Shown here piece after piece: positions 2 to 20,997 of a DNA stretch of 35,509 nucleotides. Source of the DNA: a virus. The stretch's first letter is position 1. The number at the start of each line of letters is the position of its first letter. Where the stretch lies: positions 1 to 35,509 of the IMG/VR virus record IMGVR_UViG_3300020573_000190; one strand, 5' to 3'. The notes under the pieces are model-generated. The model ran no database searches, was not told the DNA's origin, and saw nothing but the letters and a program-made list of their open reading frames with translations. Made by a program: the position numbers and the translations under genes.

Positions 2-166
2 TGGGGAACCCTGCATAGCACCGAACATGAGCTAATGAATAATCTTCGCAACTTCGAACGTGATGATAAGAAGATTGAAGATGCCTACGATTATGTGATG
101 GCAAATCATACCGTTCAGGATACCTGTAATGATATAGAAGACGTTTTGTTGGAGACTTTACGATGA
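2..166 (+). CDS. C-terminal end of an unidentified protein (partial)
   Basis: An open frame runs from the left edge and ends in TGA at 164-166, overlapping the ATG of the next gene (ATGA), as many genes here do. The visible 54 residues are acidic and helical-looking (ELMNNLRNF, IEDVLLETLR) with no recognisable domain. The position in front of the sugar genes suggests the same operon. The N-terminus lies outside the window, so the function cannot be judged. Confidence 0.6.
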   Translation, partial: WGTLHSTEHELMNNLRNFERDDKKIEDAYDYVMANHTVQDTCNDIEDVLLETLR

Positions 167-1401
167 AGGTAGCAGTTATTGGTGCAGGTGGTCATGTTGG
201 CTTTCCATTCTCTTGTGTTATCGCTAATGCTGGTCACACAGTTTATGGTATTGATATCAATCAGGACGCTGTAGACTTACTAAACAGAGGCATTGTTCCT
301 TACATAGAGGAAGGCGCCGCAGATATTCTAAATGAGAATCTACGAAAAGAGCGCCTACTATTTACAACAGATTTTGATTTCATCAAAGATGCTGACGTGG
401 TTGCTATTATGATTGGCACGCCAGTTGATGGCGAAGGTAACGCCAGACTAGATGACTTATTCAACTTTGTTGATGCTACTCTTATTCCTCGCATGAAGAC
501 AGGTCAGTTGATTGTTCTACGGTCTACTGTATCACCAGGAACAACAGAGGTTCTTCGCAAACACATTTCATATAAGCATGGATGGGCAGAAGGAGGCGAT
601 TATCATCTTGTATTCTGTCCTGAAAGAGTTGTTCAAGGCAAGTCTATGGTCGAAACATCTAAACTGCCACAGTTGATTGGCGCATTCAATCATCATTCAT
701 TTGATGTTGCTAAGGACTTTTTTAGCACATTCATCAAGAATGAAATATTTTATCTAACGCCAAGAGAAGCAGAAGTTGGTAAACTCATGACGAACATGTA
801 TCGTTATGTTACCTTTGCTTTCGCTAACGAGTTTTGGATGATCGGAGAGAAACATGGAATCAACATTGACAAAGTTATTGACGCATGTAACCACGATTAT
901 CCTCGTATGTCTGTACCACACCCTGGTCCTAATGTGGGTGGTCCTTGTCTTTTCAAAGATGGTAAGTTTCTTCTTTCTGACATTCCTTTTGGCGATCTTA
1001 TCAATACTTCGTTCCTTATCAACGAAGGCATGCCGGATTATATCTTCAATCGGATCAGAGAAATCAATCCAAAGGTAGATAAGGTTCTTATTCTAGGTGC
1101 GACATTCAAGAAAGATTGCGACGATACAAGAAACAGTCTATCATTCAAGATGCGTAAGGTATGTAAGAAGCACGGTGTAGAAGCATATATGGATGATAAG
1201 TTTTACATCGATAGTCTAGCAAAGTTTCCAGATGCTATCAAGTTTGATGCTGTTATTGTTATGACACCTCATACAGGAACGGAAGTTGATTGGCCATTAG
1301 ACCAGTTTAGAAAAGATTGTATCATTGCTGATATCTGGAAGATGTATCCAGAAAGCAAACTAAGTAATACGGGCATTTATAAAGTTGGAGATGTGCTATG
1401 A
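163..1401 (+). CDS. Nucleotide-sugar dehydrogenase (UDP-Glc/UDP-ManNAc dehydrogenase family)
   Basis: Oxidises the C6 hydroxyl of a nucleotide sugar to a carboxylate in two NAD-dependent steps. The N-terminus has the Rossmann signature VIGAGGHVG (residues 5-13). The central domain carries FCPERVVQGK (151-160) and VGKLMTNMYR (from 205, with the catalytic-type Lys207). GPNVGGPCLFKDG (255-267) holds the thiohemiacetal cysteine, Cys262. Length 412 aa is normal for the family, and the sequence looks closer to the WecC (UDP-ManNAc) branch than to plain Ugd, but the substrate is not certain. It starts in an ATGA overlap with the preceding frame and ends in an ATGA overlap with a 43-aa ORF. It heads a run of four sugar enzymes, so surface-glycan remodelling or phage glycosylation is the likely use. 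Confidence 0.88.
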   Translation: MKVAVIGAGGHVGFPFSCVIANAGHTVYGIDINQDAVDLLNRGIVPYIEEGAADILNENLRKERLLFTTDFDFIKDADVVAIMIGTPVDGEGNARLDDLFNFVDATLIPRMKTGQLIVLRSTVSPGTTEVLRKHISYKHGWAEGGDYHLVFCPERVVQGKSMVETSKLPQLIGAFNHHSFDVAKDFFSTFIKNEIFYLTPREAEVGKLMTNMYRYVTFAFANEFWMIGEKHGINIDKVIDACNHDYPRMSVPHPGPNVGGPCLFKDGKFLLSDIPFGDLINTSFLINEGMPDYIFNRIREINPKVDKVLILGATFKKDCDDTRNSLSFKMRKVCKKHGVEAYMDDKFYIDSLAKFPDAIKFDAVIVMTPHTGTEVDWPLDQFRKDCIIADIWKMYPESKLSNTGIYKVGDVL

Positions 1402-1529
1402 GCGATGAAATCAAAAAGGCAATAGAGTTTGCTGTTATGAAAACCCTTCGTGAAATTGGATTAGAACAGTTCAAAAAGACTTCCTTTTTCGTCGGTAGTA
1501 AAAAGAAAAAATATAAGAAAGGATTATAA
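1398..1529 (+). CDS. Small basic hypothetical protein (43 aa)
   Basis: The ATG overlaps the stop of the dehydrogenase (ATGA), and the stop is one base before the next gene. The product starts MSDEIKKAIEFAVMKTL and ends in a lysine-rich tail (GSKKKKYKKGL), which suggests nucleic-acid or membrane-surface binding. No family is recognised. The exact fit between two enzymes and the ATGA coupling support a real gene. Confidence 0.55.
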   Translation: MSDEIKKAIEFAVMKTLREIGLEQFKKTSFFVGSKKKKYKKGL

Positions 1530-1530
1530 A

Positions 1531-2517
1531 ATGCGAGTTCTGGTTACAGGCAGTGAAGGTTCACTAATGCAGGCGGTCATTCCGCTACTACTAAAGAAGG
1601 GTCATGTTGTTTATGGTGTGGACAATCTAGCCCGATACGGCGAGCGCCTAGGTATTGCTGGTAATGATTATCAGTTCATCAAGTGTGACTTGACTGATGG
1701 TATTAGTGTTTTAAAACTATTTGAACAGGTGAAGCCTGATTATGTTATTCAGGCGGCTGCTACGATCTACGGAGTCGGCGGTTTCAATAAGTATTGTGGT
1801 GAGATGTATAAGGACATTTCTTTACATGATAACGTCCTTCGTGCCGCCGCCGCATATAGTGTATTGAAGGTTATCTATATTTCATCTTCTATGGTCTATG
1901 AGAACTGTCCACAAGATATCGCATATCCTGTAAAAGAAGATATTGTTGGAAACTATCCTGCGCCTTATACAGATTACGGACTCTCAAAGTTTGTTGGTGA
2001 AAGAGTATCCCATGCTTATCATAGACAGCATGGTCTAAAGTATACCATCTGGCGCCCATTCAACATCATTACACCATATGAAAAGAGTGAATCCGAAGAA
2101 GTTGGTATCTCACATGTCTTTGCTGATTACATCAAAAACATTGTGATTGAAAAGAAGAAGCCGCTACCTATCCTAGGTGATGGTTATCAGATTCGGTGCT
2201 TCACATGGATTGATGAAGTTGCCGCTGCTATTGCTGACTATTCTTTCTCCGAAAAGACTGATAACAAGACTTACAATCTAGGTAATCCAGAGCCAATCTC
2301 TATGCGTGTTCTGGCAGAGAAGATCAAAGACATTGCTGCTAAGGAGTTTATGCTTCTTGATGATTATTTCTTGCTTTATGAAACGATTGGTGATTATACA
2401 AATGATGTTCGTGTTCGTATTCCAGATTGTGAAAAGGCGAAAAATGAACTTGGTTGGGAAGCACGAATGAAAGTTGACGACTCTATTCGTATGTGTCTAA
2501 AGCATGTTGTATCATAA
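1531..2517 (+). CDS. NAD-dependent epimerase/dehydratase (extended SDR family)
   Basis: A 328-aa extended short-chain dehydrogenase acting on nucleotide sugars. The N-terminal Rossmann motif is VTGSEGSLM (5-13), where the usual third glycine is replaced. The catalytic set is visible as the Ser run SSSMVYE (118-124) and YGLSKFVGE (Tyr149, Lys153). A strong RBS (agaaagga) lies just upstream. The gene lies between a sugar dehydrogenase and a His-type DegT enzyme. It could be a 4,6-dehydratase or 4-epimerase feeding the dehydratase, but the substrate cannot be read from sequence alone. Confidence 0.83.
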   Translation: MRVLVTGSEGSLMQAVIPLLLKKGHVVYGVDNLARYGERLGIAGNDYQFIKCDLTDGISVLKLFEQVKPDYVIQAAATIYGVGGFNKYCGEMYKDISLHDNVLRAAAAYSVLKVIYISSSMVYENCPQDIAYPVKEDIVGNYPAPYTDYGLSKFVGERVSHAYHRQHGLKYTIWRPFNIITPYEKSESEEVGISHVFADYIKNIVIEKKKPLPILGDGYQIRCFTWIDEVAAAIADYSFSEKTDNKTYNLGNPEPISMRVLAEKIKDIAAKEFMLLDDYFLLYETIGDYTNDVRVRIPDCEKAKNELGWEARMKVDDSIRMCLKHVVS

Positions 2518-2527
2518 GGAGAATAAA

Positions 2528-3694
2528 ATGAGTTATGTGTGGCCTCTAATGAAAGATACTATTACGTGGAACGATAAGTTGGCGATGATAAAGTTCATCC
2601 TTACAACAAAACAGTTCACAAATGGTCCTCGTGTTCGTGATTTTGAAAATGAATGGAGCAAGTGGTTAGGATGTAAGTATTCTCTTTATGTTAGCAGCGG
2701 AAGCACAGCAAATCTTCTTCTAATGGCTAGCGTAAAGGAACGATACAATTTAAAAGATGGAGACAAAGTTCTCGTTCCTTCTTGTACCTGGGTAACTAAT
2801 ATATCACCAGTTATTCAGTGTGGTTTTGAACCGATCTTTTGTGACGTTAATTCTACAAATTACTCTTTTGATCCAGATCATCTTATGGATATTGCACGTA
2901 AACACAATATCAAGGTTGTTTTCACATCACATCTTCTCGGTTATTCCGCTGACTTGGCTTTCTACAAAAAGATACTTCCGAACGCAATTTTCCTAGATGA
3001 CGTTTGTGAGAGTCATGGTTGTTTGAATCCAGATGGATCAAAAGTTGGTTCGAACAGTATAGGTGCGACTTTTAGTTTTTATTTTGGTCATCACATGACA
3101 ACCATTGAAGGTGGTTTTGTTTGTACCAATGATTATGAATTGTATTCCATTATGAAAGCAAAGAGAAGTCATGGACTAGCCCGTGAGTTACCTCCTCAAG
3201 ATTTTGAAAAGGCAAAGAAGAATTATCCATATCTTCATCCTCAATTTTTGTTTATCACAGAAGGTTACAATGTTCGTAATCATGAAATTTGTGCAGTCCT
3301 TGGACTAAGTCAATTAAAACGTCTAGATAACATGATTGCGATTCGTCGTAAGAATGCTGCATTGTTCAATGATATACTGAGTAAATATTCGGATCATTTT
3401 TATATTCCTTCAAACTCTGATACTAATTCATCATTTTGCTTTCCTTTGTTGGCCAAAGATGATGATGTAGCTGATAGATTAAAGTCTAATCTAGTTGCTG
3501 CGGGTATCGAAACACGTCCTATAGTGAGCGGAAACTTATTAAAGCAGCCTTTTTTACGAAACTATAAGATACAGCCTAATGGAAAAGATTTTATTGATTT
3601 GATCCATAAGAATGGAATTTATGTCGGCAACAATCACTTTATTGGTACAAAAGAACTAAATCTATTAGATAAAGTCATAAGAGAATCTATATGA
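2528..3694 (+). CDS. DegT/DnrJ/EryC1-fold sugar 3-dehydratase, His-type (ColD/RfbH-like)
   Basis: A PLP/PMP-dependent fold-type I enzyme of 388 aa. An upstream ATG at 2504 exists, but the RBS aaggag at about 2516-2521 places the start at 2528. The key feature is SFYFGHHMTTIEGG (from residue 183): the position of the PLP-binding lysine of DegT aminotransferases is a histidine (His188). That change is the hallmark of ColD (GDP-4-keto-6-deoxymannose 3-dehydratase) and RfbH/E1 enzymes, which remove the C3 hydroxyl instead of transaminating. Other DegT landmarks are SGSTANLL (57-64) and LDDVCESHG (156-164). The predicted role is making a 3-deoxy or 3,6-dideoxy sugar nucleotide. RfbH-type enzymes need a reductase partner, and none is visible here. 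It overlaps galE by 4 nt. Confidence 0.85.
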   Translation: MSYVWPLMKDTITWNDKLAMIKFILTTKQFTNGPRVRDFENEWSKWLGCKYSLYVSSGSTANLLLMASVKERYNLKDGDKVLVPSCTWVTNISPVIQCGFEPIFCDVNSTNYSFDPDHLMDIARKHNIKVVFTSHLLGYSADLAFYKKILPNAIFLDDVCESHGCLNPDGSKVGSNSIGATFSFYFGHHMTTIEGGFVCTNDYELYSIMKAKRSHGLARELPPQDFEKAKKNYPYLHPQFLFITEGYNVRNHEICAVLGLSQLKRLDNMIAIRRKNAALFNDILSKYSDHFYIPSNSDTNSSFCFPLLAKDDDVADRLKSNLVAAGIETRPIVSGNLLKQPFLRNYKIQPNGKDFIDLIHKNGIYVGNNHFIGTKELNLLDKVIRESI

Positions 3695-4635
3695 GCAAAG
3701 TGTTTGTAGTAACAGGTTGTAATGGATATATTGGCAGTCATATGTGCCATGAACTTGGCGCTATGTATAACGACTGCCACATCATCGGTATTGATAGAGT
3801 TGAAAAGAAACATCTAAGGCATCTTTATGATACTTTTTTGAACATTGATCTTGCTTTGGATTCATTCATGTTTCTCAAAGATAAATCAATAGATGCAGTG
3901 TTTCATTTTGCCGCTGACATATCAGTAGAGGAAAGTGAAAGAGAGCCGTGGAAATACTATTACAATAATGTAGTGGGTTCCATGAGGTTGATTGATAAAG
4001 CTAGATCACTAGGTGTAAAGAACTTCATCTTTTCATCAACTGCGGCTGTCTATGGTGAAAGAAAGGATGCTGCCTTCGGTCATCTAACAGAAGAAATGCC
4101 TATGCAGCCTCATTCGGTCTATGCTAAAACAAAAGCAATGGTCGAACAGATACTATCCGAAATTCCTGATATGAATACAGCCCGACTTCGGTACTTCAAT
4201 GCCGCTGGTAGGGATGTAAAAGCCAATCTATATGAGGAACATGATCCAGAAACTCATTTGATTCCTCTACTAGCACGAAACAAAGAAGCAACGATTTATG
4301 GTGACGATTGGCCGACAAGAGATGGAACTTGTATCAGAGATTATGTCCATGTGAAAGATATTTGCCGAGCCCATACACTAGCCTACAGATATATGGAACA
4401 GAACAATGAAAGTGTGGTATTTAACGTTGGTAGTGGGAAAGGACATACTGTCAAGGAAGTTGTTGACAAGACGAATAAAATACTACATAATGGTGAAATG
4501 AAGGTAAATATCGCACCTCGTCGGGAAGGAGATGTGGCGTATCTCGTAGCGGATACGACTTCCATTCAGACCAAGTTGGATTTTACTCCACAATACACGT
4601 TGGATGATATACTGGAAAGTATGAAGAATGGATAA
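3691..4635 (+). CDS. galE: UDP-glucose 4-epimerase (GalE-like)
   Basis: An extended SDR enzyme interconverting UDP-glucose/UDP-galactose or their N-acetyl forms. It has the Rossmann motif TGCNGYIGS (8-16), FSSTAAVYGE (114-123) and SVYAKTK with Tyr144 and Lys148. The GalE hallmark YGDDWPTRDGTCIRDYVHV lies in the C-terminal half. At 314 aa it is slightly shorter than the usual ~335 aa. The start overlaps the dehydratase stop (ATGA). It is the last of the sugar genes and probably supplies a galactose-type donor for host surface or phage glycosylation. Confidence 0.88.
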   Translation: MSKVFVVTGCNGYIGSHMCHELGAMYNDCHIIGIDRVEKKHLRHLYDTFLNIDLALDSFMFLKDKSIDAVFHFAADISVEESEREPWKYYYNNVVGSMRLIDKARSLGVKNFIFSSTAAVYGERKDAAFGHLTEEMPMQPHSVYAKTKAMVEQILSEIPDMNTARLRYFNAAGRDVKANLYEEHDPETHLIPLLARNKEATIYGDDWPTRDGTCIRDYVHVKDICRAHTLAYRYMEQNNESVVFNVGSGKGHTVKEVVDKTNKILHNGEMKVNIAPRREGDVAYLVADTTSIQTKLDFTPQYTLDDILESMKNG

Positions 4636-4798
4636 GTGGGAAAAACTAAAATCACTGATTGAGGCAGACTTGTCGTGGATGGTTCATTACTCCCATGACA
4701 AGAAGTTTGATAGAACGATGACCGAGAGATATCTCAACATGATGCGGAATTTGGAGCAGGAAGAAAATGAAAATGACAAAGACGAAACCAGAAAGTGA
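4628..4798 (+). CDS. Small charged hypothetical protein (56 aa)
   Basis: The ATG lies within the last codons of galE, and the frame stays open to TGA at 4796-4798. The product begins MDKWEKLKSLIEADL and ends in an acidic/lysine-rich tail (QEENENDKDETRK). No domain is recognised. It overlaps the next gene start (4767) by 32 nt, so one of the two starts may be later. Support is operon position and length only. Confidence 0.5.
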   Translation: MDKWEKLKSLIEADLSWMVHYSHDKKFDRTMTERYLNMMRNLEQEENENDKDETRK

Positions 4799-5051
4799 TT
4801 TCATTTTTGTAAGACGTGAAAAGCCAAATTTCAATACTTCGGAACATACTATTATGTTTAGTATCGAAAGAAATAATGAAAAAACGGATTTGACAGATTT
4901 AGTTTATCTAACAACTCATGCTAATGGCGTAGAGGAATGGGTTCATAAAGATACTTATCAATTTTACTATGACCTTATGCATAAGCATGATAATATAAAA
5001 GAATGGGTGGGATCCGAAGATCATAAAGATTTTTTGGAAGGATTATCATAA
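4767..5051 (+). CDS. Hypothetical protein with an EEWV motif, paralogue of 6732-6953
   Basis: A 94-aa protein with no recognised domain. The segment DLVYLTTHANGVEEWVHKDTY (about residues 41-62) resembles YVCLGVRKDGMEEWVPERQY in the small gene on the other side of the acyl-CoA dehydrogenase, so the two look like diverged paralogues. The RBS (ggaagaaa) precedes the ATG; a second in-frame ATG at 4773 is also possible. Its stop overlaps the first base of the dehydrogenase ATG, which suggests translational coupling. Confidence 0.65.
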   Translation: MKMTKTKPESDFIFVRREKPNFNTSEHTIMFSIERNNEKTDLTDLVYLTTHANGVEEWVHKDTYQFYYDLMHKHDNIKEWVGSEDHKDFLEGLS

Positions 5052-6730
5052 TGAAATACACAGCACCAGTAGAATCGTCAACGTTTCTTCTTCGTGACGT
5101 TCTAAAGTTCGACAATGAACTTACAGAGCCGATTCTAACCGAAGCAGCAAAACTATGCGAAGAAGTTATTGCTCCTACTAATCAAGCAGGAGATTATGGA
5201 TGTCAACATCATCAATATGTGGCAGAAAAATACTTCGTTCTTGTTCCAGAAGAGTTCCATGAACCTTGGAAGAAATTCAAAGAAGGTGGTTGGCTTGGTT
5301 TATCGGTTCCTGAACAATATGGTGGCCAAGGTCTACCCTATACACTTGCGGCTGCGGTCAACGAGTTTGTATCCTCGTCTAACATGGCTTTCTCTCTTTT
5401 TCCTGGCCTTACTCGTGGAAATATTCAAGCACTCCTAGAAGTTGGTTCCGAATATCAGAAAGCAGAGTTCATTCCTAAGATGGTATCTGGTAAATGGACA
5501 GGCACCATGAACCTGACAGAACCACATTGTGGAACTGACCTTGGTTTGATTAGAACTAAGGCTGTCCAGGACGATGCTGCCGGTGGATATAGAATCACAG
5601 GACAAAAGATTTTCATTTCGTGTGGCGAGCATGATCTAGCAGATAACATTGTTCATCTTGTTCTGGCACGTATTGAAGATGATCCAGAAGGCGTCAAGGG
5701 CATTAGCATGTTTCTTGTGCCGAAGTTTTGGATGGACGGTGACGAGAAGATTCGTAACAATGTCTCTTGTGGTTCTATTGAAGAAAAGATGGGCATTCAT
5801 GGTTCACCTACTTGCGTTATGAACTATGATGGTGCTATCGGTATTCTTGTGGGCGAACGCTGCAAAGGTCTAAATGCCATGTTCATTATGATGAATGAGG
5901 CACGTCTCGGTGTTGCTGTTCAAGGTCTATCACAATCGGAGTTGGCTTATCAAAATGCTCTTGCTTATGCCAAAGATCGTATTCAGAGTGCCAAGATTAC
6001 AGATCCCAAAGGTAAGTCTGTTGCTATCATAGAACATCCTGACGTTCGCCGTATGCTTATGGATATCAAATGTATCAATGAGGCTGGACGACTTCTTGTT
6101 CTAGAAGCGGCAATGCTTTGCGATGATAAATCACAAGAAGCACAGGATCGTCTTGGTCTACTAACTCCAGTTCTCAAAGGTGTTCTAACGGATTATGGTT
6201 TTGAGAATGCTGTAAAAGCGCAACAGGTCTTCGGTGGTCATGGATACATCAAAGAGTGGGGTATGGAACAGATTGTTCGTGACGCTCGTATCTGCCAAAT
6301 CTATGAAGGTGCCAATGGTATTCAGGCACTAGACTTGGTTGGTCGTAAGTTGCCAAAGGATATGGGTCGTGCTATTATGACTTTCTTCAATGACAGTGAA
6401 GCATTCTTGACCAGTTCTTATGACAAGGACATCAATTCAATAGTTCAGCCAGTTACAACTTCTCTAAATGAATTGAAACAGGCCACAGAATGGCTGGTTG
6501 CTAATGGTTTGATTAACCCAAACAATGCCGGTTCTGCATCTTATGACTATATGAAGATGTTTGGTCTTGTGTTACTTGGTATGGCGCATATTCGTATCTG
6601 CCTTGCTACTGACGATAAGGACAGACACAATACCGCAGAATACTTTATGAACCGTATTATTCGTGAAACAAACTTTTTGTTATATCGTATTCGTTGCGGT
6701 TCACAGTCGATGATGAAGGCGGAGTTATAA
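5051..6730 (+). CDS. Acyl-CoA dehydrogenase (long form, DmdC/FadE5-like)
   Basis: An FAD enzyme that desaturates an acyl-CoA thioester at C2-C3, passing electrons to an electron-transfer flavoprotein. It is 559 aa, close to the ~590-aa long form (3-methylmercaptopropionyl-CoA dehydrogenase DmdC and FadE5-type) rather than the ~390-aa short form. Visible motifs are GLSVPEQYGGQG (83-94), the FAD-binding TMNLTEPHCGTDLG (152-165), MNEARLGVAVQG (281-292) and QVFGGHGYIKEWGMEQ (392-407). The catalytic base is in ICQIYEGANGIQ, Glu419. A C-terminal helical domain follows. The frame is intact with no missing key residue. The RBS is aagga. In a phage this is an unusual auxiliary metabolic gene; the substrate is unknown and the host would have to supply ETF. 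Confidence 0.92.
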   Translation: MKYTAPVESSTFLLRDVLKFDNELTEPILTEAAKLCEEVIAPTNQAGDYGCQHHQYVAEKYFVLVPEEFHEPWKKFKEGGWLGLSVPEQYGGQGLPYTLAAAVNEFVSSSNMAFSLFPGLTRGNIQALLEVGSEYQKAEFIPKMVSGKWTGTMNLTEPHCGTDLGLIRTKAVQDDAAGGYRITGQKIFISCGEHDLADNIVHLVLARIEDDPEGVKGISMFLVPKFWMDGDEKIRNNVSCGSIEEKMGIHGSPTCVMNYDGAIGILVGERCKGLNAMFIMMNEARLGVAVQGLSQSELAYQNALAYAKDRIQSAKITDPKGKSVAIIEHPDVRRMLMDIKCINEAGRLLVLEAAMLCDDKSQEAQDRLGLLTPVLKGVLTDYGFENAVKAQQVFGGHGYIKEWGMEQIVRDARICQIYEGANGIQALDLVGRKLPKDMGRAIMTFFNDSEAFLTSSYDKDINSIVQPVTTSLNELKQATEWLVANGLINPNNAGSASYDYMKMFGLVLLGMAHIRICLATDDKDRHNTAEYFMNRIIRETNFLLYRIRCGSQSMMKAEL

Positions 6731-6731
6731 T

Positions 6732-6953
6732 ATGAGTAAATCTTGTGATTTTACTATGGTGAGACAAGTAATTGACGAAGATGGAACGGGTTGGGGATTC
6801 CAATTCTATAAGAAATCTGCCTTACCTGACCTAACAGGTTATGTTTGTTTAGGTGTTCGCAAAGATGGTATGGAAGAATGGGTGCCTGAACGGCAATACA
6901 AAGGTTGGAAAATAATCTTTGATAAAAATCACGGAAATTCTGATGAAGGCTGA
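6732..6953 (+). CDS. Hypothetical protein with an EEWV motif (73 aa)
   Basis: Starts two bases after the acyl-CoA dehydrogenase stop. It shares the pattern VCLGVRKDGMEEWVPERQY with the gene at 4767-5051, so small paralogues flank the dehydrogenase on both sides. No known domain. Both are cytoplasmic-looking and acidic. The pairing suggests duplication, or insertion of the dehydrogenase between copies. Confidence 0.65.
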   Translation: MSKSCDFTMVRQVIDEDGTGWGFQFYKKSALPDLTGYVCLGVRKDGMEEWVPERQYKGWKIIFDKNHGNSDEG

Positions 6954-6959
6954 TCTGTA

Positions 6960-7088
6960 ATGTTTTATATTCTTTACATCATAGACAATGAAGGTACAGG
7001 ATATTTTATGCGTAAGTTTGTAAAAAGACAAAGAGATATAAATCCAGCAACATCATATTGGATGGTACCAGGAACATACGAACTATGA
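6960..7088 (+). CDS. Small hypothetical protein (42 aa)
   Basis: An open frame MFYILYIIDNEGTGYF... with an ATGA overlap at its end (7085-7088) to the next gene. The N-terminus is hydrophobic and the rest basic (MRKFVKRQRD). No family recognised. Supported by coupling and by filling the gap between genes. Confidence 0.5.
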   Translation: MFYILYIIDNEGTGYFMRKFVKRQRDINPATSYWMVPGTYEL

Positions 7089-7291
7089 AAAAGATAACAG
7101 AACATGTTTACGCTACAGATGATGAAAAATATTTGTCCGCTAGAATACTAGAAGGCGGTTATATCATAGTCGCAAAACAAACATCGAAATATGATGCTGC
7201 TACTGTCGCCGCTAGATTTCAAACCTTAGAAGAAGCGAAAGATTGGATTATAAAATATGAAACTGAAACCTTGTCCATTTTGTGGAAATGA
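7085..7291 (+). CDS. Hypothetical protein (68 aa)
   Basis: The start at 7085 (MKKITEHVYATDDEKY) is chosen over an upstream in-frame ATG at 7058 because it forms the usual ATGA overlap. The pattern of beta-strand-like segments followed by a helix ending TLEEAKDWIIKYE is common in small T4-like phage proteins, but no named family is recognised. Confidence 0.6.
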   Translation: MKKITEHVYATDDEKYLSARILEGGYIIVAKQTSKYDAATVAARFQTLEEAKDWIIKYETETLSILWK

Positions 7292-7631
7292 CGCATTGAT
7301 AGAGCGATATGGTAATACCAGACAATCTACCAAATATTCTTGTACCTATTGTGGTTGTAGATTAGAAACTGGTGAAACGTTCGATCATGGTGCCGCCTGG
7401 AACATAAGAGAGAATTATAGTGACGAATCTATAGAAAATTATGAACGATTTCTTGATGCCGCCCACAAACGATGGGGACGTATTACTATAGATGCGAGTA
7501 TCGCTAGAACGATGGCTGATTGGATAGAGAAAGGAGAAAATCTGGATCTGGTTGTAAAATGTGTTCGTGATTTGTGTGATTTAGTTGAATGTGAAGAGAA
7601 ACAGACTGATGACAGAATACTATTATCCTAA
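7257..7631 (+). CDS. Zinc-ribbon protein with a Lar-type N-terminus
   Basis: A 124-aa protein that begins MKLKPCPFCGNDALIERYGN and continues YSCTYCGCRLETG...HGAAWNIRE. The two CxxC pairs (Cys6/Cys9 and Cys29/Cys32) and the closing WN match the Lar (restriction alleviation) zinc-ribbon family. The second half (about 60-124) is helical and acidic and is not part of that family, so the architecture is a ribbon plus an extra domain. Whether it counters host restriction is unknown. It overlaps the upstream gene by 35 nt. Confidence 0.7.
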   Translation: MKLKPCPFCGNDALIERYGNTRQSTKYSCTYCGCRLETGETFDHGAAWNIRENYSDESIENYERFLDAAHKRWGRITIDASIARTMADWIEKGENLDLVVKCVRDLCDLVECEEKQTDDRILLS

Positions 7632-7797
7632 TGAAGTCAAAATCGTTGTAGAGAATGGTAAGCGAGTTGCTTATCTTAAGGATAACTGGCGAGAGATTAG
7701 AGAAAAGAATGAACGCAAAACATCACCAGCGGTGTTGCGTGATACCAAAGTTCCCTGGTCTTTCTGGAAGCCGCCGAACTACTATTGGGGAGCATAA
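7609..7797 (+). CDS. Hypothetical protein (62 aa)
   Basis: The start at 7609 (MTEYYYPNEVKIVVENG) follows aagagaaacagactg; an in-frame ATG at 7585 would overlap the upstream gene more. The C-terminus is aromatic and proline-rich (VPWSFWKPPNYYWGA). No family recognised. Confidence 0.55.
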   Translation: MTEYYYPNEVKIVVENGKRVAYLKDNWREIREKNERKTSPAVLRDTKVPWSFWKPPNYYWGA

Positions 7798-7842
7798 GAC
7801 GATTTTACAGAATGAAAAACGTCCTTGAATGGAAAGAGACTA

Positions 7843-8148
7843 ATGAGTGAAAAAATATTCTTTGTAACGAGAGACCATGAAGCTGGACCCGGAGAATGGT
7901 GCCTTCGATCCACCAGAGTAAGTGGATGGAAGGAACACATAGGACCAAGGACATATGCAATTCTTATTTCTATGATTCTGAACAATAAAGATAAGTATCC
8001 AGAACTTGAATCTTTGTTATCTGGTATAGCATATTCTGAACATGTAAATTTTATACACAAAGATGATATTCCACCACGCAAAGTTCAAGAAGAACTTATC
8101 AACGCTATCAACAATATAATTGAGACAAAAGGGACTAAAGATGTATGA
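7843..8148 (+). CDS. Hypothetical protein (101 aa)
   Basis: The start at 7843 (MSEKIFFVTRDHEAGPGEW) is preceded by ggaaagag; an ATG at 7825 is less likely. A compact alpha/beta-like protein with no named family. It ends in an ATGA overlap with an exported protein. Confidence 0.6.
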   Translation: MSEKIFFVTRDHEAGPGEWCLRSTRVSGWKEHIGPRTYAILISMILNNKDKYPELESLLSGIAYSEHVNFIHKDDIPPRKVQEELINAINNIIETKGTKDV

Positions 8149-14122: not shown

Positions 14123-14787
14123 GAGTAAAAATCGGGCCGTATAAGAATTGGTATGGACCATATCAGATTGCTGAATGGGTTACATTTCTAAACGACGACC
14201 AGAAGGATAGACTAGGTGATTGGCTAGCCCAGACTTGGCTTACCAATATCTGCGACTGGATTTATAAAATTCGTGGTGAACGCACCATTAAGGTTCGTAT
14301 TGATCCATATGATACTTGGAATATGGACAATACTCTTGCCCACATCATTCTACCTATGCTCAAGCAGCTAAGAGATACCAAGCATGGTTCTCCTATGGTT
14401 GATGACGAGGATCTTCCTCCACATATGCGTTATAGTGATCCCAAGGTTGATGAAAATGGTTGGGATATGGGTGACAACTGGGTTCACTATAAGTGGGAAT
14501 GGGTTCTCAATGAAATGATTTGGACATTTGAGCAGGAACTTATTCCTTATGAAAACTGGCAGGAACAGTTCTATCATGGCACTCCTAATTATGTAGAAAT
14601 TCCAGTGCCTTGTGAAGAAGATGGATTTAAAATACATCGACACGTAGATGCCTCTAAGGATTGTTTCAAACTAGAACAAACTAATCCTGATTATTGGGTT
14701 GACTATGAAGGCATGAAGCGTTATAATGAACGCATTCAGAACGGCTTCCGACTATTCGGAAAGTATTATCAGAACCTGTGGGACTAA
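14119..14787 (+). CDS. Conserved phage hypothetical protein (222 aa)
   Basis: Starts MRVKIGPYKNWYGPYQIAEW. It has a Trp-rich middle (NMDNTLAHIILPMLKQLRDTKHGSP) and a DDEDLPPHMR segment. I recognise this as a family common in T4-like phages near replication genes, of unknown function. No catalytic motif is evident. Coupled upstream by ATGA. Confidence 0.7.
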   Translation: MRVKIGPYKNWYGPYQIAEWVTFLNDDQKDRLGDWLAQTWLTNICDWIYKIRGERTIKVRIDPYDTWNMDNTLAHIILPMLKQLRDTKHGSPMVDDEDLPPHMRYSDPKVDENGWDMGDNWVHYKWEWVLNEMIWTFEQELIPYENWQEQFYHGTPNYVEIPVPCEEDGFKIHRHVDASKDCFKLEQTNPDYWVDYEGMKRYNERIQNGFRLFGKYYQNLWD

Positions 14788-14799
14788 GGAGAATATGGT

Positions 14800-14982
14800 A
14801 TGCACATTCTAGAAAGATATTATCTTGTTGATGATAATGGTAACGAACATGAATTGAAATGTAAGGTTCAGACAGATATTGCTATGTTGAGAGAAGAAAC
14901 GAATCATACTGCAAATAAAGAATTGCTAAAAATTAGAAACAACGAGTTGTTAGCTGAATTGTCATTGATGGGTGTTCAGTAA
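14800..14982 (+). CDS. Small hypothetical protein (60 aa)
   Basis: The RBS aaggag precedes MHILERYYLVDDNGNEHELK. It has a strand-turn-strand start, then one long helix (LREETNHTANKELLKIRNN). No family recognised. Confidence 0.6.
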   Translation: MHILERYYLVDDNGNEHELKCKVQTDIAMLREETNHTANKELLKIRNNELLAELSLMGVQ

Positions 14983-14994
14983 AAGGAGAATAAC

Positions 14995-15204
14995 ATGGTA
15001 CCTTCAAGTGAAAGCAACATGCACGTCCTAGAGACTGCATTCAAGCAGCGTGCCTTTGATGGCAAGTGGGAACGAATTGTCAAGATTATGGATCTTGATA
15101 ACTCTTATTCATTCGTGAATGAGAATGGTAATCGCACTACTCTAATTCCAGAGAAGTGGGTAACGGTCGGTGTTTACGACCTTTTGATGGAGATTGTTGA
15201 CTAA
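14995..15204 (+). CDS. Small hypothetical protein (69 aa)
   Basis: The RBS aaaggag precedes MVPSSESNMHVLETAFKQRA; a later ATG (codon 9) is an alternative start. The core WERIVKIMDLDNSYSFVNENG looks beta-rich. No family recognised. The stop overlaps the start of the Sm-like gene. Confidence 0.6.
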   Translation: MVPSSESNMHVLETAFKQRAFDGKWERIVKIMDLDNSYSFVNENGNRTTLIPEKWVTVGVYDLLMEIVD

Positions 15205-15515
15205 TGGCTAAGACAGAAAATCTAAAACTTGTTCACATGATGACTGGCGAGGAGTTCATTGGAGAACTTATCAGCGAGACAGAGACCACTATCACGGTAA
15301 AGAATCCGGTTCGCATCGTTGTTATTCCAACTGCGGATCAGAACAATCCAAAGGTGGCATTCGGTCCTTATACACAGTGGACTGACGATAAACACTTGAC
15401 AATCAATCGTCATCATGTTACATATATCGCTGCACCAATCAATGAGTTTGTCAATCAGTATACCTCTATGTTTGGTGGTCTAGTCCTTCCAAGATCAGAG
15501 ATTATTAAGCCTTAA
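15204..15515 (+). CDS. Sm/LSm-like protein
   Basis: A 103-aa protein whose first 40 residues, LKLVHMMTGEEFIGELISE then TTITVKNPVRIVV, follow the Sm1 fold pattern (strand, GEEFIGEL turn, strand) seen in phage Hfq/Sm-like proteins. The C-terminal part includes FGPYTQWTDDKHLTINRHH. Sm folds bind RNA and form rings, but RNA binding here is inference. It sits directly before gp43 with a 1-nt overlap, a placement conserved in some T4-like phages. Confidence 0.65.
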   Translation: MAKTENLKLVHMMTGEEFIGELISETETTITVKNPVRIVVIPTADQNNPKVAFGPYTQWTDDKHLTINRHHVTYIAAPINEFVNQYTSMFGGLVLPRSEIIKP

Positions 15516-18058
15516 TGAAAAAACTTTATACGAGCGTTGAGGTATGGGGTGGCAAAATCCTATACCGTGGAATCGAAAACGGTCGTCGTGTGCGACACAA
15601 GGTGGATTACAACCCCACCTTGTTCGTCGCTGCGAATAAGCCTATCAAGTATACCACCATTTACGGTGAGTATGTCGCACCTATAAAACCAGGCAACATC
15701 CGAGAGTGCCGAGATTTCGTAAAACAGTATGAAGGTGTGGATAACTTCAAGGTTTATGGCAATCAGAAATATCATTATTGTTTCATCGCCGACGAGTTTC
15801 CTGGTACGATTGACTGGGACGCCTCGCAAATCCGTATAGCCAATATCGATATCGAAGTTGGCTCCGAGAATGGCTTTCCAGAACCAGAACTCGCCAATGA
15901 ACCGTTGACAGCAATCACGGTATTGGTTGATGGCGTCTTCCATACATTTGGAACAGGTCCATATAACACCAAGCGCCATGATGTGGTGTATTATAGATGT
16001 GCCGACGAGTTTCAACTTGTTAGCATGTTTCTTGGCTGGTGGCAACAGGATCATCCGGATATCATTACAGGTTGGAACGTAGAACAGTTCGATATTCCTT
16101 ATCTTGTAAATCGTATTTCTAAACTGTATGGTGATGAAGTAAAGAAACTTTCGCCATGGAACGTTATCAATGCCAAGACACTGGATCTTGGCATGAATCG
16201 TAAGGGACAGGGTTATTCCATTCTTGGTGTGGCTACTCTGGACCTAATGGCACTATATAAGAAATATGCTCCTGATGGCAAATCGCAAGAAAGCTATCGT
16301 CTAGACAACATTGCGAATGTTGAGCTAGGTGAGCGTAAACTATCATATGAAGAATTTGGTTCACTTCATAATCTCTACAAGGAAGATTATCAGAAGTTCA
16401 TTGACTATAACATCAAAGACGTTGATCTTGTGAACCGACTTGATGAAAAGCACAAGTTTATTGAACTTGCTCTAACTCTTTCATATGATAACAAATGTAA
16501 CTACGAGGACGTGTTCGCACAAGTCCGTATGTGGGACGTTATTTGCTTTAATCATTTGAAGGCGAAAAACGTGGTCGTCCCTCCTATTGAAAGACACGAA
16601 AAGGAGGCTGCCTATGTTGGCGCTTATGTTAAAGACCCTATTACTGGTTTCCATGATTGGGTGGCTAGTTTTGATGTTAACTCAGAGTATCCGTCTGTTA
16701 TTATGGGGACCAATATCTCTCCTGAGACGATTATCGAACCTAGTGCTTATAGCGATTGTATGCGGTCTATTATATCCGCTAATGTCACTGTTGATGGCCT
16801 TCTTAATAAGTCTATTGATACATCATGTCTAAAGGAAGAGAACGTTTGTTTGGCTGCTAACGGTCAGTTCTATCGCCGTGACAAGCAAGGCTTCATGGCT
16901 GAAATGGTTGAAAAGATGTTCGCTGATCGTAAGATATACAAGAAGGCAATGTTGGATGCACAAGCACAATATGAAAATGAAATCGACGAAGCAAAGAAGA
17001 AAGAACTTAAAAAGACCATTGCAAAATACAACAACCTGCAACTCTCCAAAAAAGTATCGCTCAACTCGCTATACGGTGCGATGGGTTCACAGTATTTTCG
17101 GTTTTTCGATTTACGAAATGCGATTGCAATCACGACTACGAGCCAATTGTCAATACGCTGGATCGAAAGATCACTTAATAACTATCTCAACAAACTACTG
17201 AAAACGGAGAGCGATTATGTTATTGCAGTCGATACTGATTCAGTTTACCTTGCACTTAAGGATGTGGTATGCCAGACGTTGCGTGGCGATGTTAAGGATA
17301 CTGCAAAAGCCATCGCTTTCATGGACAGAGTATGCGAAAGTAAATTGCAACCTGTTATTGATAAGGCTTGCGGAGAGCTTGGCGAATACACTAACGTCTT
17401 TCAGCAAAAGATTGTCATGAAGCGAGAGGTCTTGGCAGACAAAGCAATCTGGACTGCCAAGAAGCGATACATTCTAAATGTCCATAACTCCGAGGGTGTG
17501 CAGTATGCCAAACCCAAGAAGAAGGTTATGGGTCTAGAGATGATTAAGTCATCGACACCGACCGCATGTAGAGACAAACTAAGAGAATCCATTGATGTTA
17601 TCTTTGACGCAAATGAAGAAGCTATCCAAACTTTCATTCAAACTTTCCGTAGTGAATTTGAAACTCTGCCTTTGGCGGACATTGCATTTCCTCGTGGCGT
17701 CAATGGACTGGATAAGTATTCAGACAAGAAAAGCATATATGGATCCGGTTGTCCTATCCATGTTCGTGGTTCTCTCATATACAATCACTTTCTATCTACT
17801 CATAAACTTACTAATAAGTATCAACTAATCAAAGGTGGTGAGAAGATCAAGTTTGTGTTTCTGAAAGAACCAAACACAGTGCAATCAAATGTGATTGCAT
17901 TTCCACAAGGAGATATACCTAAAGAGTTTGACTTACACAAGTATATCGACTATAATACGCAATTCGAGAAATCGTTCCTCGAACCACTCAAGATCATTTT
18001 GGATGCTATTGATTGGAAAACAGAACGAACATCAAGTTTGGAGGACTTCTTTTCATGA
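15515..18058 (+). CDS. 43: B-family DNA polymerase, T4 gp43-like
   Basis: The replicative polymerase with 3'-5' proofreading, 847 aa (T4 gp43 is 898). Exonuclease motifs: IANIDIEVG with Asp112/Glu114 (Exo I), GWNVEQFDIPYL with Asp194 (Exo II), YNIKDVD with Asp303 (Exo III). Polymerase motifs: A, FDVNSEYPS (387-395, Asp388); B, KKVSLNSLYG (513-522); C, VDTDS (573-577, Asp574/Asp576). All catalytic acids are present and the frame is unbroken. It is followed by uvsX and gp41, as in T4. The start overlaps the Sm-like stop. Confidence 0.97.
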   Translation: MKKLYTSVEVWGGKILYRGIENGRRVRHKVDYNPTLFVAANKPIKYTTIYGEYVAPIKPGNIRECRDFVKQYEGVDNFKVYGNQKYHYCFIADEFPGTIDWDASQIRIANIDIEVGSENGFPEPELANEPLTAITVLVDGVFHTFGTGPYNTKRHDVVYYRCADEFQLVSMFLGWWQQDHPDIITGWNVEQFDIPYLVNRISKLYGDEVKKLSPWNVINAKTLDLGMNRKGQGYSILGVATLDLMALYKKYAPDGKSQESYRLDNIANVELGERKLSYEEFGSLHNLYKEDYQKFIDYNIKDVDLVNRLDEKHKFIELALTLSYDNKCNYEDVFAQVRMWDVICFNHLKAKNVVVPPIERHEKEAAYVGAYVKDPITGFHDWVASFDVNSEYPSVIMGTNISPETIIEPSAYSDCMRSIISANVTVDGLLNKSIDTSCLKEENVCLAANGQFYRRDKQGFMAEMVEKMFADRKIYKKAMLDAQAQYENEIDEAKKKELKKTIAKYNNLQLSKKVSLNSLYGAMGSQYFRFFDLRNAIAITTTSQLSIRWIERSLNNYLNKLLKTESDYVIAVDTDSVYLALKDVVCQTLRGDVKDTAKAIAFMDRVCESKLQPVIDKACGELGEYTNVFQQKIVMKREVLADKAIWTAKKRYILNVHNSEGVQYAKPKKKVMGLEMIKSSTPTACRDKLRESIDVIFDANEEAIQTFIQTFRSEFETLPLADIAFPRGVNGLDKYSDKKSIYGSGCPIHVRGSLIYNHFLSTHKLTNKYQLIKGGEKIKFVFLKEPNTVQSNVIAFPQGDIPKEFDLHKYIDYNTQFEKSFLEPLKIILDAIDWKTERTSSLEDFFS

Positions 18059-18228
18059 CAGAAGACAATAGGTATTCGCCGGGTAAACTTTATGAGTTCA
18101 AGCCTGACGAAAAGATCACATCCGAAAATATGGTGGAACTTTGTAATGTCATCCGTATTGGCGTAGGTGGTCATGTTCTAAAGGAAATGAGTGAGGAGTT
18201 ACAAAACTATTTCAAAGAAGTAGCGTAA
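18055..18228 (+). CDS. Small hypothetical protein (57 aa)
   Basis: The ATG at 18055 overlaps the gp43 stop as ATGA; an in-frame start at 18013 is rejected. MTEDNRYSPGKLYEFKPDEK, then a helix (HVLKEMSEELQNYFKE). No family recognised; lies between gp43 and uvsX. Confidence 0.6.
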   Translation: MTEDNRYSPGKLYEFKPDEKITSENMVELCNVIRIGVGGHVLKEMSEELQNYFKEVA

Positions 18229-18268
18229 CGAGATTGTTGCCTACTAACTGACAAAAAGGAGATTCTAT

Positions 18269-19327
18269 ATGTCAGATATTTTTAGTAATCTATTATCAGA
18301 AATCGATAACGAGTATGCAGGCATTGTTGATGATGGTGTTGCCGCTGGTGATGTGTCAGGATTCATTGGCACAGGCAGCTATGCTATGAATGCCTTGCTA
18401 TCTGGTTCAATCTATGGAGGTCTACCACAGAACAAGGTTACAGCATTTGCTGGTGAGCCTTCTGTTGGTAAGACCTTTTACGCATTGAATGTGGTAAAGC
18501 AGTTTCTAGAGGACAACGCAAATGGCTTTGTATTTTACTTTGAGTCCGAGTCCGCTATCTCCAGACAATTCATTGTTGATCGTGGCATTGACGCAAGGCG
18601 TGTTGGCATTGTTCCTGTGGCTACTGTGCAGGAGTTTAGAACGCAGGCAGTAAAGATTCTGGACAAGTATCTTGATGGCAAAGAAAAGCCACCGATGCTT
18701 TTTGTTCTGGATTCTCTTGGCAATCTTTCTACAGATAAAGAAATGGCAGATATTGCTGACGGTAAAGACACAAGAGACATGACCAGAGCCCAATTGGTTC
18801 GAGGTGCCTTCCGTGTTCTTACATTGAAACTCGGTAAGGCTAAGGTTCCACTAATCGTCACCAATCACGTTTATGATGTTGTTGGATCTTATGTGCCAAT
18901 GAAGAAGATGGGTGGTGGTTCTGGTCTAGAGTATGCCGCATCTACAATTATCTTCCTATCAAAGAAGAAAGATAAGGCACTAGACGATGACAATGGCAGA
19001 ACTGGTGCAGTTATTACCGCACATCTAAAGAAGTCTCGTATGACTATTGAAGATAAGAAAGTTGAGACTTGGCTAAACTATCAGGCAGGTCTAGACAAGT
19101 ATTATGGTCTGCTTGATTTGGCAGAACGCTATGGCATCGTCAAGAAGATTTCAAACAAGTATGAGTTTCCTGATGGATCAAAGGCATTCGAAAGCCAGAT
19201 CAAGAAGAACCCAGAGAAGTTCTTTACACCTGAAATACTAGATGCTATCAATGAAGGTTGTCAGGCAGATTTCATGTATGGCAAATATAATGTAGAAGTG
19301 GAGACAGAAGATGGAAATGGGAACTGA
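18269..19327 (+). CDS. uvsX: UvsX-like recombinase (RecA family)
   Basis: Strand-exchange ATPase for recombination-dependent replication and repair. 352 aa (T4 UvsX ~390). Walker A is GEPSVGKT (62-69), and a Walker B-type strand FVLDSLGNL lies near 144-152. GGGSGLEYAASTIIFLSKKK (from about 212) matches the RecA/UvsX loop region. RBS aaaaggag. It lies between gp43 and gp41 as in T4. Confidence 0.93.
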   Translation: MSDIFSNLLSEIDNEYAGIVDDGVAAGDVSGFIGTGSYAMNALLSGSIYGGLPQNKVTAFAGEPSVGKTFYALNVVKQFLEDNANGFVFYFESESAISRQFIVDRGIDARRVGIVPVATVQEFRTQAVKILDKYLDGKEKPPMLFVLDSLGNLSTDKEMADIADGKDTRDMTRAQLVRGAFRVLTLKLGKAKVPLIVTNHVYDVVGSYVPMKKMGGGSGLEYAASTIIFLSKKKDKALDDDNGRTGAVITAHLKKSRMTIEDKKVETWLNYQAGLDKYYGLLDLAERYGIVKKISNKYEFPDGSKAFESQIKKNPEKFFTPEILDAINEGCQADFMYGKYNVEVETEDGNGN

Positions 19328-19655
19328 CTTTCGATTTAGAGATGACCTTTTTGACGAAAAACAAGAAGGTTCTACATGCCCAATTGAATTAATGCTTGAC
19401 CCATTCGCTGGAGTGTGCTATCGTTATACAGTTGTCAAATTCAAGATGGAAGAAGATGGCACGCCGAAACTCCAATATGATTATGAGATTATCAAGACAA
19501 ACGATTTGTCAATGATGACCTTGCGAAAGAATGAGAAGTTCAATACTGTATTAGGTCTAATTCTCAATACACTGTTATTGGATGCATCGGAAGCAGAGAA
19601 TGGGATGAACATTGAGACTCGAACAAACGATACTGAAAAATCTAATCAAGAATGA
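19311..19655 (+). CDS. Hypothetical protein between uvsX and gp41 (114 aa)
   Basis: Overlaps the end of uvsX by 17 nt and the start of gp41 by 44 nt. MEMGTDFRFRDDLFDEKQEG, a beta-rich middle, then an acidic tail. It holds the place of T4 gene 40 (a small gene upstream of 41), but I see no sequence evidence for homology. The long overlap with gp41 suggests tight translational coupling. Confidence 0.65.
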   Translation: MEMGTDFRFRDDLFDEKQEGSTCPIELMLDPFAGVCYRYTVVKFKMEEDGTPKLQYDYEIIKTNDLSMMTLRKNEKFNTVLGLILNTLLLDASEAENGMNIETRTNDTEKSNQE

Positions 19656-20997
19656 GTCCTTTACGAGGAAGGTTCTACCCTTCCTCAAAGAGGATTATTT
19701 CTCTAATGGTGAAGATCGGCTACTTTTCAAAGAAGTGGCCGACTTCATTCTCAAGTATAATCAGCAACCAACTTTTGATGCATTGTCCATTGAGGTGGAC
19801 AATATTCGTGGTTCGACTGACGATACTGTAAAGAATATCCAAGAGACACTAAAACAACTCAAAGATGATACAAATCAAACAAACGAAGATTGGCTTTTGG
19901 ACAACACCGAAAAGTTTTGTCAAGAGAAAGCAATCTACAATGCCATTACACAATCACTGGAGATTATGAATGGGAAGGGAAAACTATCTAAGGGCGCTAT
20001 ACCTACTTTGTTGTCTGACGCTCTGGCTATATCTTTCGATCCGAATGTTGGTCACGATTATCTTGAAAATGCTGTAGAACGATATGAACATTATCACCGT
20101 GTGGAAGAACGCTTGCGGTTTGATTTGGATTTATTCAATAAGATTACAAAGAATGGCGTTCCGAGAAAAACTCTCAATGTTGTTATGGGTGGTGTCGGCG
20201 GTGGTAAATCTCTTACTCTTTGTCATTTTTCTGCTAGTTATCTTGCTATGGGCAAGAACGTTCTTTATATCACATTAGAGTTGGCCGAAGAAGAAGTTGC
20301 CAAGCGTATCGACGCCAATCTAATGAACATTACATTTGATGATTTACAAGCATTACCAAAAGATTTGTATGATAAGAGAATTGATACACTAAAGCAAAAG
20401 ACAAACGGTAAACTGATTATCAAAGAGTATGCCACGGCAACGGCATCAACTATCCACTTTCGTTCCTTGTTGAACGAACTAAACCTCAAGAAAGGATTCG
20501 TACCAGATGTTATCATGGTCGACTATCTCAATATTTGTGCGTCATCCCGTATCAAGCCTGGTAATGGTGTTAATAGTTATACCTACGTTAAAGCGATTGC
20601 CGAAGAGCTTCGAGGTCTAGCGGTAGAGTTCAATGTTCCAATCTGGTCTGCCACACAGTTGACCAGAAGCGGATACACAAGTTCTGATCCAGGTATGGAA
20701 GATACTTCCGAGTCATTCGGTCTTCCCGCTACGGCCGACTTCTTCTTTGCTCTTGTCGTAACGGAACAACTGTCACAACTAAATCAGATTATGGTGAAGC
20801 AGCTAAAGAACCGATACAATGATCCAGGCATAAACAAAAGATTTGTGATAGGGGTTGACAGAGCAAGAATGAAACTATATGATGTTGAAGCATCGGCACA
20901 AGACTTGGCGGACTCTGGACAGGAAGAACCAGAGAGACCAGTTTTTGATAGAAGCAAGACAGACAAAACCAGCAAGTTTAGAGGACTAAAGGTATGA
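19612..20997 (+). CDS. 41: Replicative DNA helicase, T4 gp41/DnaB-like
   Basis: Ring helicase unwinding DNA ahead of gp43. 461 aa. The RecA-like core has Walker A GGVGGGKS (193-200), DVIMVDYLNI (Walker B, about 297-306) and the DnaB-type WSATQLTRSGY. The start must be TTG at 19612: an in-frame TGA (19606-19608) lies just upstream, and no ATG occurs until well inside the protein. The N-terminus LEQTILKNLIKNE fits the usual beginning of gp41 homologues. The helicase therefore starts at a weak codon inside the preceding gene, implying coupled translation. Confidence 0.93.
   Translation: MRLEQTILKNLIKNESFTRKVLPFLKEDYFSNGEDRLLFKEVADFILKYNQQPTFDALSIEVDNIRGSTDDTVKNIQETLKQLKDDTNQTNEDWLLDNTEKFCQEKAIYNAITQSLEIMNGKGKLSKGAIPTLLSDALAISFDPNVGHDYLENAVERYEHYHRVEERLRFDLDLFNKITKNGVPRKTLNVVMGGVGGGKSLTLCHFSASYLAMGKNVLYITLELAEEEVAKRIDANLMNITFDDLQALPKDLYDKRIDTLKQKTNGKLIIKEYATATASTIHFRSLLNELNLKKGFVPDVIMVDYLNICASSRIKPGNGVNSYTYVKAIAEELRGLAVEFNVPIWSATQLTRSGYTSSDPGMEDTSESFGLPATADFFFALVVTEQLSQLNQIMVKQLKNRYNDPGINKRFVIGVDRARMKLYDVEASAQDLADSGQEEPERPVFDRSKTDKTSKFRGLKV

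Follow-up and report, generated by a model that had tools for sequence, protein, structure and literature searches.

The window, by which we mean the whole 35,509-nucleotide stretch analysed here (positions 1 to 35,509 of IMG/VR virus record IMGVR_UViG_3300020573_000190), carries a gene predicted to encode a FadE-type acyl-CoA dehydrogenase (ACAD), together with the features collected in Table 1. Judging from its gene content, the window is a contig of a T4-like phage carrying pmoC, and a related 174-kb record, G032, holds T4-type capsid, terminase and baseplate genes. The initial annotation had placed the ACAD in a phage of a methanotroph, and phage genes do surround it; given the presence of pmoC on ACAD phages, alphaproteobacterial methanotroph hosts are therefore probable, and the host of the window phage was probably a freshwater methanotroph.

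Table 1. Genes and other features of the window
Feature	Coordinates	Strand	Remarks
Sugar-nucleotide gene set	163-4635		
94-aa ORF	4767-5051	+	Function not assigned; stop overlaps the ACAD start (TAATG)
FadE-type acyl-CoA dehydrogenase (ACAD)	5051-6730	+	559 aa, catalytic Glu419; predicted from ORF, Pfam and structure matches
Lar-like ORF	7257-7631		Score slightly below family cut-off
pmoC/amoC, methane monooxygenase subunit C	8562-9335	+	Marks pmoC-phage
Phage family-B DNA polymerase	15515-18058	+	Phage context
UvsX	18269-19327		Phage context
DnaB-like helicase	19612-20997		Phage context
Array of 26 phage tRNAs	21319-26215	+	

A purine-rich GGAAGG precedes the overlap between the ACAD start codon and the 94-aa ORF, and the two ORFs are likely to be translationally coupled. 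The small ORF travels with the ACAD and also has a copy in contig L003 (9720-9998), which is 92% identical and contains an in-frame TGA. Elsewhere in the window, an isolated tRNA at 11930-12004, outside the array, brings the tRNA total to 27; it is called as tRNA-Pyl with a CUA (amber) anticodon and is a possible amber suppressor, and TAG serves as stop codon in just one of 30 genes checked. Two small minus-strand ORFs at 12861-13519 are conserved in 15 of 26 loci, and the first of them bears a weak, sub-threshold similarity to an Rz1-like lysis protein (LysC). The T4 late-promoter-like motif TATAAATA has a single site in the window, at 11604, which is no excess over chance and does not lie near the ACAD.

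The encoded protein

The ACAD ORF fills its interval exactly, with no internal stop codon, and its product scores above the gathering cut-off for each of the Pfam families Acyl-CoA_dh_N, Acyl-CoA_dh_M, Acyl-CoA_dh_1 and Acyl-CoA_dh_C. A C-terminal PF12806 domain is present beyond the ACAD N, M and C domains, and the uninterrupted full-length enzyme described in the initial annotation is thus borne out. Its top solved relative is 6IJC (E 1.7e-163, residues 2-555, 548 bits), identified as the 3-methylmercaptopropionate-CoA dehydrogenase DmdC (PMC11890623), followed by P. aeruginosa FadE2 and FadE1 (455-484 bits), with FadE5 well below all of these at about 220 bits. On these sequence matches, the ACAD identity of the ORF is not due to chance. 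An AidB-like role was also considered and rejected, the similarity being weak (67 bits).

The catalytic residue is intact, as had been claimed: Glu419, in a Y-E-G motif, corresponds in the alignment to Glu441, the catalytic residue of FadE1; the 8pu5 chain (E441A) shows Ala opposite it, and it is invariant in all 27 phage sequences compared. Based on equivalence with the FadE1 CoA-contact residues F289, R296, D450 and R454 (PMC11890623), the window protein has the corresponding F278, R285, D428 and R432, as well as the gate residue Y418, all of them invariant in phages. Loss of catalytic residues in relatives, against which the initial annotation had cautioned, was therefore not found.

Distribution among viral contigs

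Three other viral contigs (L001, L002 and L017), whose names suggest that they come from different metagenomes, agree with the window at 99.99% over its first 13-16.7 kb, with the ACAD included at the same place. These matches make host contamination or misassembly unlikely, and they speak in particular against a misassembly with a bacterial contig, a concern raised in the initial annotation.

Two IMG/VR scans yielded 45 contigs, of which L141 and L148 were left out; the remaining ~43 hold ACAD relatives with 64-100% identity to that of the window. The gene is rare across phages generally, as first proposed, but common in this phage group. L141 falls with Rhizobium FadE outside the phage clade and is likely bacterial DNA labelled viral, and the INPHARED matches at 41-43% ('Acinetobacter phage MD-2021a', CAKLQF/CAKLQH) were rejected as probable bacterial contigs with several ACADs per record.

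On 20 of the 45 ACAD records pmoC is present. Conversely, among 26 pmoC contigs longer than 30 kb, PmoC is at least 88% identical to that of the window in 19; eight of these hold a full ACAD, one an ACAD truncated where the contig stops and one a C-terminal piece only, while in about half no ACAD was found. None of the seven contigs with a distant PmoC (59-64%) has the ACAD. Copies may be hidden by fragmented contigs. Some long phage contigs (107-169 kb, possibly incomplete) carry the ACAD without detected pmoC, and a link to methane oxidation is therefore not required. The basal ACAD phages (L018-L021) are of a different phage type with queuosine-pathway-like genes (QueE-like, GTP cyclohydrolase, weak QueC-like), as in L020 at 1723-20706.

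The substrate tunnel

In P. aeruginosa, the filter residues G129/A295/Q302 of FadE1 are associated with long chains and M130/E296/Q303 of FadE2 with medium chains, and the exchange A295E in FadE1 moved its preference towards C8 (PMC11890623). Our pocket argument is built on these published residue equivalences, according to which the window tunnel is G119/A284/Q291, that is, the long-chain residues of FadE1, as in all alphaproteobacterial sequences sampled. Residue 284, which is Ala in all bacteria sampled, is altered to Leu or Glu in 15 of 27 phage sequences (L284/H291 in 11, L284 in one and E284 in three). Of 162 positions that are 98% conserved in bacteria, 16 are altered in at least 40% of phages, including 117, 120, 284, 288 and 291, the latter three of which would lie on one helix face, whereas the catalytic and CoA-contact residues are unchanged in every phage sequence compared. 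In our reading, relatives have re-tuned the tunnel and the window copy has retained the ancestral filter, a hint that the substrates of those relatives have shifted. The unusual acyl-CoA that the initial annotation had suggested as substrate is thus unsupported for the window copy, with its FadE1-type long-chain tunnel, but plausible for relatives with changed tunnels.

A broader version of this idea is that the phage family uses another acyl-CoA (medium-chain, branched or modified) instead of the long-chain acyl-CoA of the host. The frequent alteration of residue 284, the clustering of changes at 120, 284, 288 and 291 and the effect of A295E at the equivalent FadE1 position all speak for such a shift; however, the ancestral tunnel is retained in the window copy, and we consider this explanation unlikely.

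Ancestry

The phage ACADs form a single clade in the careful tree (support 100/100, 12 phage sequences) and also in a 27-sequence tree. Within the sampled family, the nearest bacterial ACAD shows 57% identity, and the four top bacterial genomes (G236, G181, G063 and G160) each hold five or six pmoC matches. The phages are nested among methanotroph relatives in the quick tree but not in the careful one, and constraining them to join methanotroph FadE gave a tree that outscored the free careful one by 9 log units and was not rejected. Likelihood favours methanotroph FadE as the donor lineage; we claim no donor because the quick and careful trees disagree and some constrained trees outscored free ones.

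The gene might instead encode a DmdC-type enzyme, a 3-methylmercaptopropionyl-CoA dehydrogenase of DMSP breakdown, given that its best solved relative is a DmdC (PMC11890623) and that a union of the phages with Roseobacter DmdC was not rejected (p-AU 0.17 in the careful and 0.56 in the quick set). However, the phage ACADs sit outside the Roseobacter DmdC clade in the trees found, and this union costs 20 log units relative to the free careful tree, whereas that with methanotroph FadE brings a gain. In addition, identity is 48% to DmdC against up to 57% to bacterial FadE homologues, the probable host is a freshwater methanotroph, and the methanotroph homologue adjoins beta-oxidation genes, namely a thiolase in two pmoC-bearing genomes and, in one, an ECH/3HCDH (enoyl-CoA hydratase/3-hydroxyacyl-CoA dehydrogenase) fusion. 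This neighbourhood points to ordinary FadE work, and a DmdC-type function seems quite improbable. As a functional label, the 'DmdC/FadE5-like' of the initial annotation is thus not retained, FadE5 being distant as well.

Selection and exchange between phages

Pairwise dN/dS, a comparison proposed with the initial annotation, is 0.07-0.25 among the phage ACAD copies, in keeping with purifying selection, and 0.14-0.15 in two bacterial pairs. The phage copies have a GC3 of 0.21-0.39, compared with 0.83-0.87 for those of the bacteria, and this phage-like composition (~0.3) indicates that the gene has long been resident in phages. Judging from these patterns, purifying selection has long kept the phage ACAD in working order.

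The gene also appears mobile: window positions 4628-6702 match L003 at 88% with unlike flanks, by which measure the ACAD moves cassette-like between phages. An orphan 41-aa C-terminal ACAD piece in L189 (19047-19169; G032:139047-139169) is 97.5% identical to the tail of the L024 copy and, on this match, is derived from an L024-like donor; it lies 1.3 kb before pmoC in G032, which has a full ACAD as well. A second C-terminal piece is present in L121, and an orphan piece of this kind may also explain the partial ACAD that PMC7674155 reported near pmoC. In L147 (8001-9744), numerous small frameshifts split the ACAD among several reading frames, reflecting either long-read errors or a pseudogene.

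Cassette transfer, orphan C-terminal fragments, the published partial gene (PMC7674155) and the frameshift-broken L147 copy would all be expected of a functionless host gene that hitchhikes by phage-phage recombination. Such hitchhiking is largely disfavoured by dN/dS values well below 1 across deep divergence, and the intact catalytic residues and the single old clade likewise make it very improbable. Serine-cycle methylotrophs use the ethylmalonyl-CoA pathway, and the methylsuccinyl-CoA dehydrogenase of this pathway would suit the probable host and has a length similar to the phage ACAD, but it is scarcely credible here, since 6ES9, which we take to be this enzyme, matches residues 74-433 only, at 102 bits (6IJC: 548 bits), and an extra C-terminal domain takes the place of an N-terminal extension in the phage protein.

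Proposed function

We return to the reading that we prefer, an enzyme of FadE type. A search of 26 phage records found no ETF, ECH (hydratase) or thiolase, and ETF and ETF-QO (ETF-quinone oxidoreductase) are present in all eight pmoC-bearing bacterial genomes checked; the phage enzyme would therefore be a single added step leaning on the host. With a host-type gene, a genuine phage genome and purifying selection all in evidence, we consider it probable that the putative FadE-type ACAD is an auxiliary metabolic gene of large T4-like phages, many of them with pmoC. Its activity, substrate, pairing with ETF, expression and benefit are what we infer from sequence comparison.

Here we propose that a long-chain fatty acyl-CoA would sit between FAD and Glu419; Glu419 would abstract the alpha proton as FAD accepts the beta hydride, giving trans-2-enoyl-CoA. 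Electrons would then flow from the ACAD through host ETF and host ETF-quinone oxidoreductase to ubiquinol, and the host would complete the remainder of beta-oxidation. During infection, more host acyl chains might in this way be converted to acetyl-CoA and ubiquinol, and the latter could feed respiration and possibly pMMO; membrane lipid would be our presumed source of acyl chains, and energy the presumed benefit. The complete scheme, in which a long-retained phage FadE family with some re-tuned tunnels turns host lipid acyl chains into ubiquinol for respiration and for pMMO with phage PmoC in infected methanotrophs, is doubtful and offered tentatively. A working phage ACAD would place fatty-acid oxidation beside a methane monooxygenase subunit among the methanotroph functions taken over by phages, with a bearing on the effect of infection on carbon and electron flow in methane-emitting lakes. 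In addition, the natural series of tunnel variants could provide ready variants for studies of chain-length control in the ACAD family.

Comparison with known systems

P. aeruginosa FadE1 (PA0506) and FadE2 (PA0508) have the same architecture with an extra C-terminal (CII) domain (PMC11890623) and share equivalent catalytic Glu, CoA-contact and tunnel residues with the phage ACAD, the window tunnel being that of FadE1; the window enzyme differs in being phage-encoded and shorter, with no beta-oxidation partners nearby. The FadE proteins of the alphaproteobacterial pmoC-bearing genomes G236, G181, G063 and G160 reach 57% identity, the top value among sampled bacteria, and have the same tunnel and catalytic residues, but are encoded with fadA/fadB at a GC3 of ~0.85, compared with 0.34 in the window, and relative to alphaproteobacterial homologues the phage ACAD has lost loops of 12, 5 and ~10 aa. 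DmdC (6IJC) shares domain architecture and tunnel residues with the window ACAD but is 48% identical, falls in another clade in the trees found and belongs to another pathway context.

Among phages, the closest precedent is that of the Lake Mendota phages LM_1, LM_7 and LM_8, in which a partial acyl-CoA dehydrogenase was reported in 2020 within a 2-kb shared region (PMC7674155). Our search of open-licence papers found no phage ACAD of this kind beyond that report, and an intact, long-held phage ACAD lineage appears to be undescribed. The Lake Mendota phages belong to the same phage group, show the same cassette-like sharing and, by description, carry the same gene family; whereas only part of the gene was reported there, here it is full-length, under selection and spread over ~43 contigs.
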